64,000 bases of DNA from Opitutales bacterium (GCA_021772515.1 JAJFLU010000022.1:62001-126000), one strand, 5' to 3'. Numbered from the stretch's first letter, positions 23,442 through 37,522 are shown. Made by a program: numbers and translations. Notes: a model not told the origin generated them from the sequence alone.

Positions 23442-24344
23442 ATGCGGTATTTTCTCAGATTTATTACTTACACTGCGTTTTTCTGGGCGTTGGTTTTATG
23501 GCAGGGTTTAGCTTTTGGTGTTCCGACCAAACTGGGAGACCTTGATGAGGATGGTCAGGCTACGGTTCTGGATGTTGTTATACTCCAAAATCACCTTCAG
23601 GGCAGCTCTTTTTTGTCGCCCAGCCTGCTGCCCTTTGCCGATGTCAATAAAGACGGTGTGGTAAACGCTGTGGATGCCACTGTTCTTGCCGATATTGTCC
23701 TGCAACGCCTGCCGCTTGAGGATCCTCAGTTTTCCGATCGTGATTTCGACGGATTGCCCAACGATTTTGAAACCGCGATCGGCCTCGATCCCGACCTCGA
23801 GGACAGCAATGGAAACAGTGTGGTTGACGGACTTGAGGACTCCGACATCGACGGTCTTCCCAATATCGGTGAGTTTTTGCTTGGGACGGATCCTACAAAA
23901 CCTGATTCTGACGGAAACGGAACCAACGACGGCCTGGAGGATAGCGATTTCGATGGAATCAACGACGGGGACGAAATTCGCGGGGGCACCGACCCCACCT
24001 TAATTGACACCGACGGCGATGGTTTGGACGACTTGACAGAAATCGCCGAGGGCCGGGATCCTACGATCAGTGACAATATGATCTCGGTTCAGGTTACCTC
24101 CACCATTTCTGCTTATCTAAACGCCCTTCCAACCGCATTGCCAAGTGATTTTTCCACAACATCCGTCCAATCCCTTCCAATTTTTTACCTCAACGCCCAA
24201 GAGACCACCTTGTTAGCCGACCATTTCATTTCTGTCCAATCATTCCCTATGTACTACATTAATACATTGGAAGGAATACTTCCAACCGCCGTTGATTACC
24301 CGGTTGAATCACCTTTGATCAGTTATGAATCGAACCCGCCCTAA
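23442..24344 (+). CDS. Secreted dockerin plus thrombospondin type 3 repeat protein
   Basis: A 300-residue protein. A signal peptide (about 1-26) is followed directly by a type I dockerin-like pair of calcium loops. Loop 1 is D33-L-D35-E-D37 ending at D44, and loop 2 is D67-V-N69-K-D71 ending at D78, each followed by a hydrophobic helix. Residues 97-210 hold about five thrombospondin type 3 / calcium-rich repeats (DSDGNGTNDGLEDSDFDG and similar). The C-terminus (about 215-300) has imperfect repeats around SVQSLPIFYLN and SVQSFPMYYIN. Dockerins bind cohesins, and the third gene of this operon encodes two cohesins. A calcium-dependent surface assembly is therefore a reasonable inference. No catalytic domain is present. 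Confidence 0.8.
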   Translation: MRYFLRFITYTAFFWALVLWQGLAFGVPTKLGDLDEDGQATVLDVVILQNHLQGSSFLSPSLLPFADVNKDGVVNAVDATVLADIVLQRLPLEDPQFSDRDFDGLPNDFETAIGLDPDLEDSNGNSVVDGLEDSDIDGLPNIGEFLLGTDPTKPDSDGNGTNDGLEDSDFDGINDGDEIRGGTDPTLIDTDGDGLDDLTEIAEGRDPTISDNMISVQVTSTISAYLNALPTALPSDFSTTSVQSLPIFYLNAQETTLLADHFISVQSFPMYYINTLEGILPTAVDYPVESPLISYESNPP

Positions 24345-24371
24345 GCGCTAAAACTCCAATCTGATAACATT

Positions 24372-25610
24372 ATGAATCCCAAACGCCAATTGTCTCGCAG
24401 CATTCTACCCGAATTAACACACCGGTGCCCGGCACTACGTTTATGTTGTATTTGCGCTTTGGCTCTGATCGTTTTCGCTTTTACCCCCCGGTTTTCGATA
24501 GCGCAAAATATCGACCTGCCCCACACCAGCGCTTCCACCGGGGTCGATGGCCCGTTGAATATATCCGGTATCCTGGGAGGGACCTACGTGTTCGACATGA
24601 CTGCAAAGCCGGACGGGGTATGGAATTTTACCTCAATCTTCGTCGAGGAGGGGATCACCGTAACCTTCGAGAAAAATGACAACAATACTCCTGTGGTGTG
24701 GCTGGCGACGGAGAATGTCCAGATTGACGGTGTGCTGAACCTCAATGGCGTTGCCGGGACACTGGTTGAGGGTCAGGCGTCTCCCGGCGGCCCTGGTGGC
24801 TATGCTGGCGGCCTGGGCGGAATAGCGTTCAATCGTTCGAATTTATATGCCGGCAGCGCGGGTCAAGGACCCGGCGGGGGCTTGCCAGGCTCTAATTTTT
24901 GTGCAGCAGGTGGTAATGGCGCTTACAATGGAGTTTATGGCAACGCCTTCATTCAACCCTTGGCTGGTGGTTCAGGCGGCGGTGGCTCTGGTTCTCTCAG
25001 CGATAGTAACGGAGCAAATGGCGGTGGTGGGGGCGGCGCTATTCTGATCGACTCGACCCTGGATATCATTGTGAACGGGACCATTTCCGCCATTGGTGGT
25101 GGTAGCGCAATCAATTGTCAATTTTCAGGAACTGGCTCCGGCGGTGCCATTCGCCTGGTGGGGGACCGCGTGCTTGGAACCGGTAACCTTTCTGTGGGTA
25201 ATGGACGCAGCCGGGTGGAAGGTTTTATCCGGCAAATATTAGCTAACTCTTCCGCCGCTCCCTCTGGGACGCTCGACTTTGGAGTCAATCAATCCCAATT
25301 ATTAATAACCGATGTAGCGGGCGTGGGGGTAGCTTCACCTCCGACCGGCGACACAACCAACCCCGACGTTGTATTCTCCCAAGCGGGCGAAGTCACCATA
25401 ACCGTTACAGCGATAAACATCCCGGACGGCAACCCGGTAACCTTGCGCATTATCTATAGCGGGCTAATTATCGCATTACCTGATCCGAACGATCCCACGG
25501 CGCTGTTTGCGGCACAGCTTTCAGGAGGCATAGCCACTTTTACGGCTACTTTGCCTGCCGGCATCGGCACAATCCAGGCCTTCTCGATTGTCGAAATTTC
25601 TCCCCAATAG
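24372..25610 (+). CDS. Glycine-rich secreted protein of the cohesin/dockerin operon
   Basis: A 412-residue protein I do not recognise by name. After a basic N-terminus, a hydrophobic segment (about 22-43, CCICALALIVFAFTP) ending near SIAQN looks like a signal peptide. Residues 55-115 are rich in beta strands, for example YVFDMTAKPDGVWNF and VVWLATENVQIDGVLNLNG. Residues 135-230 are dominated by Gly-Gly runs (GGPGGYAGGLGG, GGGGSGSLSD, ANGGGGGGAILI), suggesting a beta-helix or a flexible polyglycine sheet. The C-terminus from about 310 resembles an Ig-like strand sandwich. It lies 27 bases after the dockerin gene and 41 bases before the cohesin gene, so it is probably a structural partner of both. 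Confidence 0.6.
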   Translation: MNPKRQLSRSILPELTHRCPALRLCCICALALIVFAFTPRFSIAQNIDLPHTSASTGVDGPLNISGILGGTYVFDMTAKPDGVWNFTSIFVEEGITVTFEKNDNNTPVVWLATENVQIDGVLNLNGVAGTLVEGQASPGGPGGYAGGLGGIAFNRSNLYAGSAGQGPGGGLPGSNFCAAGGNGAYNGVYGNAFIQPLAGGSGGGGSGSLSDSNGANGGGGGGAILIDSTLDIIVNGTISAIGGGSAINCQFSGTGSGGAIRLVGDRVLGTGNLSVGNGRSRVEGFIRQILANSSAAPSGTLDFGVNQSQLLITDVAGVGVASPPTGDTTNPDVVFSQAGEVTITVTAINIPDGNPVTLRIIYSGLIIALPDPNDPTALFAAQLSGGIATFTATLPAGIGTIQAFSIVEISPQ

Positions 25611-25651
25611 GCTCATATTGAGGAAGACCTTCTGTCTCCCCCACATTGATT

Positions 25652-27199
25652 ATGGCAGCGATTAAAAGTAAACCCGGTGGCCAATTGGGATTCCGGCTCA
25701 GGCTCACGGCGTTTATTGTGGGCCTGTTAGTTTTGGCTCAACCGTTATCAGGGGAGTCCATCGTTTTCATGGGTGATTCCAGCGGTGAAACCGATTACAG
25801 CCTTAACGTGCCCGTCAGCCTTGTTACCAATGGCAACTTGGCAGCCCTGCAGTTTGATGTTCTTTATGACCCGGCGGTGGCTACAGTCGGCCAAATCCTG
25901 GGCGGCAGCGCGTTAGTCAACCACTCCATTGCTTCAGAGAATATCGACGTGGGAGTGCTCCGGGTGCTCATTACCTCTCCTGACAATTCGACTCTCGCGA
26001 CTGGTGATTTGGCGCAAATCGCGGTGACTCTTTCGAGCGCCGTTCCCGAAAACAGTCGCAGTTTGTTTCTGGACAATATCATTTTCTCGGGCAGCGATGG
26101 AATCCAAATCCTTGAGCGACGATTGACCTCTCTGGCGCTTGGGAAGTCCAGCGGAACGAACGGATCCACGGTGGATGTGCCGCTGAAGCTCGACTCGATC
26201 AACGAAGTGGTGGCCGTGCAATTCGATATCCTCTACAACCCTGCTACTGCCACACTCGATAGTATTCTGGGAGGCAGTGCCCTGGTCAGCCATTCGGTGG
26301 ATTCGGCAGGACTGGTGAATCAGGATGTAAAGCGTGTCATTGTCACTTCGGCAGACAATGCCCCTTTAAACGACGGCGAATTGGCTTCCATCATGGTAAC
26401 GTTGGTGAGCGCTGTTGCCGAAAATGACCGAAGCCTTTCCATCGACAATGTTATCGTTTCAGATAGTAATGGCAAACTGATGCCCGAAGCGCTCATTCCA
26501 TTTGTGCAATTGTTAGCGCCCATGGAAGGTCAGCAGGTTGATGAGAATGTGCAGGTGACCGTCAGCGGACTGGCTGCAGATACCGATGCCGGGGGGTCGG
26601 TCAGCGAAGTGGAGTTTTTTGCCAATGGCCAAAGCCTGGGGGTAGTCAATCAACCTCCTTACACCACTACCTGGACAGCCACTCAACCGGGCCAAAATAT
26701 ACTTACTGCCATGGCCAGGGATAACAGCGGATTCCTGGCCGTCTCAAGCCGGGTCATAGCCAATGTCAGCGCTACAGCGACTCCTTACCAAATCTGGCTG
26801 GCCGCACATTTCAGCGATTTCGAGCAAACGCAGCAGGCATTAAGCGGTCCCCTGGCTGATTTCGATGACGACGGTATTATCAATCTATTCGAATATGCCT
26901 TTGGCCTCGACCCGAAAATATCGGCGACAACTGGAATGCCCATAATTATAACTGTAGACGACGGCGGACAAACCTACCTGGCCATACAATACCGGCGGCC
27001 TGTCAGCGCAACCGACCTGACTTACGATGTCGAAGTGTCGGTCAATCTCACAGATTGGAATACCGGGTCGGGGCATACAGTTCTTCACAGCAGTGACACT
27101 CAGGGTGGGATAGAAACCCGAATCATCCGCGATGCCATTCCCATGGATCAGCAAAACACGCGGACCATGCGCCTGAAAATCAACGAACCCGGTATATAG
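25652..27199 (+). CDS. Secreted protein with two cohesin-like domains, an Ig-like domain and an EF-hand
   Basis: A 515-residue protein from the ATG at 25652 (a TTG two codons earlier is less likely). A signal peptide ends near residue 35. Two tandem cohesin-like domains follow (about 37-155 and 160-278). Both contain the pattern AALQFDVLYDP or VAVQFDILYNP, a shared GGSALVxHS turn and the L.xGxLAxI.VTL strand. An Ig-like module (285-373, VEFFANGQSLGVV) comes next. Then DFDDDGIINLFEYAFGLDP (about 403-421) holds a calcium loop, and the last domain with YLAIQYRRP and SVNLTDW is common in verrucomicrobial secreted proteins. Cohesins are the scaffold half of cohesin-dockerin pairs, and a dockerin protein is encoded two genes upstream. 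Confidence 0.78.
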   Translation: MAAIKSKPGGQLGFRLRLTAFIVGLLVLAQPLSGESIVFMGDSSGETDYSLNVPVSLVTNGNLAALQFDVLYDPAVATVGQILGGSALVNHSIASENIDVGVLRVLITSPDNSTLATGDLAQIAVTLSSAVPENSRSLFLDNIIFSGSDGIQILERRLTSLALGKSSGTNGSTVDVPLKLDSINEVVAVQFDILYNPATATLDSILGGSALVSHSVDSAGLVNQDVKRVIVTSADNAPLNDGELASIMVTLVSAVAENDRSLSIDNVIVSDSNGKLMPEALIPFVQLLAPMEGQQVDENVQVTVSGLAADTDAGGSVSEVEFFANGQSLGVVNQPPYTTTWTATQPGQNILTAMARDNSGFLAVSSRVIANVSATATPYQIWLAAHFSDFEQTQQALSGPLADFDDDGIINLFEYAFGLDPKISATTGMPIIITVDDGGQTYLAIQYRRPVSATDLTYDVEVSVNLTDWNTGSGHTVLHSSDTQGGIETRIIRDAIPMDQQNTRTMRLKINEPGI

Positions 27200-36907: not shown

Positions 36908-37519
36908 CTATAATCGTTTCCTCAAAACCATTACGGCCAAGCCGAAAAAGAGCAAGATGGAAACAGAGGGCTCGGGTATGGCGATGGCCCCGGCGAGGAT
37001 GCCCACGCCAGGCTCCGACTCATAAGCAAAATCGAAAAAGAACCCTCCCAATCCTGCAAACTCTCTTATTTGAATCCACCCGTAATGCGTTTCCCCCTCA
37101 ATTTCAAATTCCGCACCCATGAAGGCCGTTAGATTAGTGAAAGCACCGTCGCATTGAACACCGATGGGGGTTGACATACAACTTGAAATAAAGGCCTTGT
37201 CGCCCCACCATTGCGCCCCATTTGCATTATCTATTGCTTCTCCAATCGAAAAGCCTGCATCCAAAGGAGCCAAATTATTCTCAAAAACTGTGATAATTCT
37301 ATTATTTCCTTGCGGCCTTAATGTAAATCCTGAATTTGAAGCCGAAAAGATTAAATCAATCGCGCCATCACCATTGAAATCAAAATCCTTGGTAGCTAGA
37401 GAAACGAAAACAAAAGACTCTTCGTCCTCAGGGATGTCCACATAGATAATAACTGCCGAACAGTTTAGAGTCGACAGACTACCGATTGCGAAGGCACACC
37501 AGAATAATAATTTTCTCAT
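36908..37519 (-). CDS. PEP-CTERM exported protein
   Basis: A 203-residue protein with an N-terminal signal peptide (about 1-22, LLFWCAFAIGSLSTLNCSA) and a C-terminal sorting tail. The tail is the PEP motif IPEPSVS, a hydrophobic helix LLFFGLAVMVL and a basic end RKRL. PEP-CTERM tails are processed by exosortase and are linked to extracellular polysaccharide, but no exosortase gene is in the window. The body (about 25-170) contains FDFNGDGAIDLIFSAS (a calcium-loop-like DxNxDG) and HYGWIQIREF, common in this class. The function is unknown. It lies 3 bases after the subtilase stop (37523), so both are probably cotranscribed. Confidence 0.85.
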   Translation of the reverse strand: MRKLLFWCAFAIGSLSTLNCSAVIIYVDIPEDEESFVFVSLATKDFDFNGDGAIDLIFSASNSGFTLRPQGNNRIITVFENNLAPLDAGFSIGEAIDNANGAQWWGDKAFISSCMSTPIGVQCDGAFTNLTAFMGAEFEIEGETHYGWIQIREFAGLGGFFFDFAYESEPGVGILAGAIAIPEPSVSILLFFGLAVMVLRKRL

Positions 37520-37522
37520 CGG

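Follow-up and report, generated by a model that had tools for sequence, protein, structure and literature searches.

An operon encoding a dockerin and two cohesins without a cellulosome in an uncultured Verrucomicrobiota bacterium

Which role do cohesin and dockerin modules play in a bacterium that has no cellulosome? This question is raised by a three-gene operon of an uncultured Verrucomicrobiota bacterium, located on the + strand at positions 23442-27199 of the 64,000-nucleotide stretch of DNA analyzed here (the window; G000:C15:62001-126000). The host assembly comprises 3.84 Mb in 63 contigs and is 93.8% complete. The genes of the operon are separated by gaps of only 27 and 35 nt, and Pfam identified a DAHP synthase encoded upstream and a beta-lactamase-family protein encoded downstream. 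A scan for promoters and terminators performed no better than with shuffled sequences. The operon has the following features (window coordinates):

23442..24344, + strand: gene p1 (300 aa)
23526..23714, + strand: dockerin module of p1, with two calcium-binding loops, GDLDEDGQATVLD and ADVNKDGVVNAVD
24372..25610, + strand: gene p2 (412 aa)
25646 (TTG) or 25652 (ATG) to 27199, + strand: gene p3 (517 aa)
25754..26128, + strand: cohesin 1 of p3 (PF00963, 34.5 bits in the genome scan)
26123..26500, + strand: cohesin 2 of p3 (PF00963, 41.4 bits in the genome scan)
26783..27196, + strand: C-terminal domain of p3, with a DxDxDG loop (15 matches genome-wide, p3 included)

In the preliminary description p3 was read from the ATG at 25652; the open frame also permits the TTG at 25646. 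Signal peptides were called by eye. Elsewhere in the window (36911-37522, − strand) we noted an ORF with a PEP-CTERM-like C-terminus (IPEPSVSILLFFGLAVMVLRKRL).

Domain architecture of the three proteins

The preliminary description had recognized a secreted three-gene operon with a dockerin and two cohesin-like domains, and the profile searches bear this out. In p1, Pfam located Dockerin_1 (PF00404) at aa 31-83 (E 5.7e-12; 46.1 bits against a gathering cut-off of 22.9), directly behind the signal peptide and hence N-terminal; with a score above gathering and two calcium loops, p1 carries both hallmarks of a type-I dockerin. The best match among dockerins of the PDB had an E value of 2e-9, and the Asp/Asn positions of the calcium loops are kept across 19 aligned dockerins, with the exception of loop 1 in L126. 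The dockerin is followed by TSP3-like Asp-rich repeats and by short C-terminal tandem repeats of the 'SxPxxYLNA' type, which by eye look like those of L027, L061 and L184. The TSP3 repeats attributed earlier to p1 remained below the Pfam cut-off in this protein (16.9 bits against 25), but the assignment holds clearly for several of its larger relatives (51-66 bits in L024, L188, L205 and L210). No catalytic domain was detected in p1 by Pfam. With its 300 aa, p1 represents a short version of a protein whose relatives range from ~430 to 2844 aa, and it is minimal beside those of 1637-2353 aa.

The product of p3 consists of a signal peptide, two tandem N-terminal cohesins, an Ig domain (Big_7; 51.9 bits in Pfam), an Asp-rich loop and a C-terminal domain. 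Two segments of p3 matched PF00963 (E 2.2e-16; 60.7 bits against a gathering cut-off of 24.1). Cohesin 2 (AlphaFold2 pLDDT ~81-91) was also recognized by fold: in Foldseek comparisons of the p3 model with solved cohesins, the TM scores (normalized by target length) were 0.75 for 2jh2_C and 0.73 for 1ohz_A, 1anu and 2xdh. In the case of cohesin 1, which AlphaFold2 modelled poorly, the assignment is sequence-based. In sequence searches, a cohesin profile (A5) retrieved cohesins of known structure (2jh2, E 9e-7; also 6kgc and 1g1k); it contains three conserved residues, Q33, D35 and R70. We do not claim that these are structurally equivalent to the residues by which cellulosomal cohesins contact the dockerin. 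The window is the only cassette among those surveyed so far with two cohesins in one protein. The p3-type C-terminal domain ends 0-12 residues from the C-terminus in all eight proteins checked (8/8), and this recurrence makes it a candidate sorting or anchoring domain common to many proteins.

The product of p2 is a secreted glycine-rich protein composed of an N-terminal Gly-rich beta domain and a C-terminal beta-sandwich-like region. It matched no family in Pfam or NCBIfam and contains no dockerin. Its AlphaFold2 model (mean pLDDT 78.9, pTM 0.62) gave values of 81-97 per 10-residue block over residues 51-280, with a dip to ~65 and 70 near residues 181-200, and values below 50 at residues 11-48 and 287-306; Foldseek found no match to it in the PDB at E<=0.001.

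A search of the whole 3.84 Mb revealed a single gene for a cohesin protein and a single gene for a dockerin protein, both within the operon, although the assembly may lack ~6% of the genome. The only cohesin protein, p3, contains no CBM, its Pfam matches being the cohesins, Big_7 and weak other hits. The earlier statement that no cellulosome is present is therefore upheld: the single dockerin of the genome is carried by p1, a protein devoid of a catalytic domain.

Joint occurrence of cohesin and dockerin genes

A homology search with p3 gave no relatives, and the glycine-rich protein and the cohesin profile were therefore used as queries. The survey of the glycine-rich family covered 373 genomes of the order and 384 of the class (overlapping sets) as well as a named collection, and the flanks of the loci were scanned with cohesin and dockerin models.

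The results showed that the gene order given in the preliminary description is kept in several families, but not in the nearest relatives or everywhere else. Two genomes of the same genus (G001, 90% complete, and G002, 81% complete) and one of the same family (G003) contained no cohesin, no dockerin and no relative of p2. The order dockerin protein, glycine-rich protein, cohesin was found in G010, a member of another family of the same order (L022), as well as in L188, L205, L210 and L126; L222/L206 shows it too, but includes one more repeat gene. In a second copy in G010 (L221/L024) the dockerin resides on an RHS protein, followed by a repeat protein, the glycine-rich protein and the cohesin. 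Other cassettes (L027, L061, L063, L065, L084 and L184) begin with the cohesin, followed by a dockerin-first gene and by repeat and glycine-rich genes. The position of the dockerin at the front of its protein, stressed in the preliminary description, proved to be general: it lies near the N-terminus in 13 of the 14 carriers of glycine-rich cassettes (the window counted), the exception being L126.

Several of these loci contain further genes. A conserved protein of 448-454 aa is encoded between the dockerin and repeat genes at L027:4285-5649 and at the equivalent positions of L061, L063 and L065; it has a C-terminal hydrophobic stretch, and the L027 protein matched nothing in Pfam or NCBIfam. 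Upstream of the G010 cassette (L022:4779-6622) there is a gene for a PEP-CTERM-like protein, then a second, more divergent cohesin gene. At L026:7781-11979 (G082:C5), a cohesin and a C-terminal dockerin are combined in one protein of 1092 aa, followed by a separate cohesin gene.

The verrucomicrobial glycine-rich cassettes with adequate flanks carried either both modules (14 cassettes) or neither (~28); not a single one had the cohesin alone or the dockerin alone. In 14/14 of the cohesin-bearing cassettes the dockerin gene is on the same strand. Fisher's test gave p ~2e-11 over all cassettes and ~9e-7 with one cassette of each state per family; these values, computed from counts entered by hand, treat cassettes as independent, which is not fully true, and the models with which cohesins and dockerins were counted had been refined on these same loci. 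Two loci cut by contig ends (L080 and L085) were excluded. A third, L206, appeared at first to have a cohesin without a dockerin, and the longer flank revealed an N-terminal dockerin upstream. Several families contain both kinds of cassettes, with and without the cohesin-dockerin pair. The Pfam cohesin model misses divergent cohesins of the cassettes (G023, for example, is Pfam-negative and was found by other scans), so prevalence estimated by Pfam alone is an underestimate.

The association extends beyond the glycine-rich genes. When the class was scanned from the cohesin side, 5/9 fetched loci without a glycine-rich gene (L247, L249, L250, L251 and L252) had a cohesin adjoining a same-strand dockerin-first gene. 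Of the other four loci, that of G375 has both modules in one protein, those of G416 and G441 lie in genomes in which no Pfam dockerin was found, and in G565 the nearest dockerin is ~10.5 kb from the cohesin; the last three speak against a pairing. Six genomes (G650, G619, G682, G592, G601 and G361) have just one Pfam dockerin, located next to the cohesin.

Block inheritance of the cassette could give the same association. The cohesin and the dockerin might then be true folds without being partners, i.e. ordinary adhesive domains in a co-inherited cassette of secreted proteins. This view is favoured by the orphan cohesin-like genes of G416 and G441 and by the dockerins that lie beside glycine-rich genes in other phyla with no cohesin detected. 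We nevertheless regard it as an unlikely explanation, since the modules are jointly present or absent in the cassettes of Verrucomicrobiota, in both gene orders and also where the glycine-rich gene is lacking. The notion of a dedicated plug and socket is well supported by genomics, the binding itself being predicted.

Partners of the glycine-rich protein and cargo of the dockerin

In the preliminary description, the two cohesins were suggested to hold glycine-rich as well as dockerin partners. The first part of this proposal is not supported: we reject a role of the glycine-rich protein as ligand of the cohesins, as it has no dockerin and its family, which spans Verrucomicrobiota and other phyla, occurs without any cohesin or dockerin in ~28 verrucomicrobial loci. 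In these loci the glycine-rich gene usually adjoins a gene for a protein with short tandem repeats; the repeat types beside glycine-rich genes include 'SREVSVFN', 'ARPPVSVL' and 'SYLNA'. With a crude repeat pattern (score >=4), such neighbours were detected at 25/46 glycine-rich loci versus 1/602 control ORFs; the pattern was written after inspection of the loci and misses 21 of them, including the window, so the figures support enrichment and no more. Since p1 ends in tandem repeats of the type found beside glycine-rich genes, we consider it a likelier contact of p2 than p3, a preference based on adjacency.

The family showed further variation. A second pair of a repeat protein and a glycine-rich protein, without cohesin or dockerin, is present in the host's own genome (L029:8398-10676, G000:C35), where the glycine-rich frame is split into two overlapping ORFs, by an assembly error or as a pseudogene. 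In L027 (8533-10671), L061, L063 and L065 the glycine-rich protein has a long N-terminal extension, which in L027 matches Kelch-type propellers in Pfam. Genomes of one family, f2 (e.g. G060:C150 and G191:C5), contain frames of 10,000-14,800 codons with glycine-rich modules. In records of Sumerlaeota and Planctomycetota (L122:4954-11320, L108, L115 and L093) dockerin ORFs adjoin glycine-rich genes with no cohesin detected nearby, and L122 has three tandem dockerin/glycine-rich pairs.

The dockerin carriers scanned by Pfam (L022, L027, L188, L205, L210, L222, L247, L249, L251, L252 and L084) are mostly large, non-enzymatic proteins. Their domains are Ig-like, carboxypeptidase-regulatory-like, LVIVD, TSP3, RHS and glucodextranase B; no catalytic domain was found at E 0.001-0.01, and the L084 carrier gave no match at all in this range. 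RHS repeats were detected in L222 and, for the L221 protein, in L024. Such carriers would fit a device for contact or antagonism, in which the cohesin displays large dockerin-borne proteins of the RHS type, the copy in the window being a degenerate and shortened one; p1 is indeed much shorter than most of its relatives. However, most of the scanned carriers gave no RHS match, and in the window the reading frames are uninterrupted and the calcium loops conserved, which makes this reading quite improbable. Highly improbable is a reduced enzyme-scaffolding complex of the planctosome or cellulosome kind, in which p3, whose pair of cohesins resembles a small scaffoldin, would gather dockerin-bearing enzymes encoded elsewhere, as proposed for peptidases in Planctomycetes (PMC6461901): the only dockerin gene in the assembly (with ~6% of the genome possibly missing) is that of the non-catalytic p1, and the scanned carriers of related genomes are non-enzymatic.

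Proposed assembly and relation to known systems

With a cohesin and a dockerin encoded together in the absence of a cellulosome, the operon is a variant of a kind already known, the non-cellulosomal cohesin-dockerin systems. According to profile and fold matches, its modules resemble the cohesin of Clostridium perfringens NagJ (2jh2/2ozn) and that of Archaeoglobus fulgidus (2xdh), with which it shares the cohesin fold and a type-I dockerin outside a cellulosome. In contrast to these, the dockerin of the operon occupies the N-terminus of a secreted protein that is not an enzyme, with no hydrolase, and the cohesins are N-terminal in a protein of their own. Cohesin and dockerin modules are shared with the type-I cellulosome (e.g. 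1ohz), but the cassette lacks a CBM-containing scaffoldin, both modules are N-terminal, and no dockerin-bearing carbohydrate-active enzymes were found in the 93.8% complete assembly.

A closer parallel in some respects is the planctosome, a hypothetical structure of freshwater Planctomycetes proposed to gather peptidases (PMC6461901). It too has an adaptor with an N-terminal dockerin and is not involved in cellulose degradation, and its anchoring protein contains TSP3 repeats (PMC6461901). The operon differs from it in the glycine-rich partner and in the lack of a detected enzyme cargo, since no dockerin gene other than p1, and so no dockerin-bearing peptidase, was found in the genome. The giant dockerin-bearing proteins of Omnitrophota, proposed as adhesins (PMC10066038), share large size and a dockerin with the proteins described here, whereas the linked cohesin gene is a feature of the operon. 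Among the titles and abstracts listed for dockerin together with Opitutales, RHS repeats or Verrucomicrobiota, no account of the cassette was found; the review of Peer et al. (2009) may mention such modules.

Probably, the three proteins form a small non-enzymatic cohesin-dockerin assembly outside the cell, in the order p2-p1-p3. In the presence of calcium, the N-terminal dockerin of p1 would dock into the cohesins at the N-terminus of p3, which would be held at the cell surface via its Ig and C-terminal domains, and the C-terminal repeats of p1 would associate with p2. With its dockerin bound to p3 and its repeats to p2, p1 would act as a bridge in a surface or matrix fibre. The surface location is suggested by the signal peptides and the recurrent C-terminal domain, both read from sequence. 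The corresponding plug and socket of related bacteria would hold far larger surface proteins, with Ig, LVIVD, TSP3 and sometimes RHS domains. The preliminary interpretation as a whole is therefore partly supported, and the calcium-dependent surface structure that it predicted is plausible.

Because related genomes keep the plug and the socket together without enzyme cargo, a connection known from the plant-degrading cellulosome seems to serve a different end in this case, the construction of a surface structure. More tentatively, the operon may belong to a surface-building system, widespread in Verrucomicrobiota and partly present in Planctomycetota and other phyla, which consists of tandem-repeat proteins and a glycine-rich partner; the cohesin-dockerin plug-in would tie a subset of these proteins, including very large ones, to the cell.

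If true, cohesin and dockerin would constitute a fastener dedicated to surface proteins without enzymatic activity, and this in a phylum whose surface assembly is poorly known. From family to family the two modules are either both conserved or both absent, so that the pairing lends itself to a direct test with small purified domains. The cassettes also draw attention to an unannotated family of glycine-rich proteins that recurs in many phyla.
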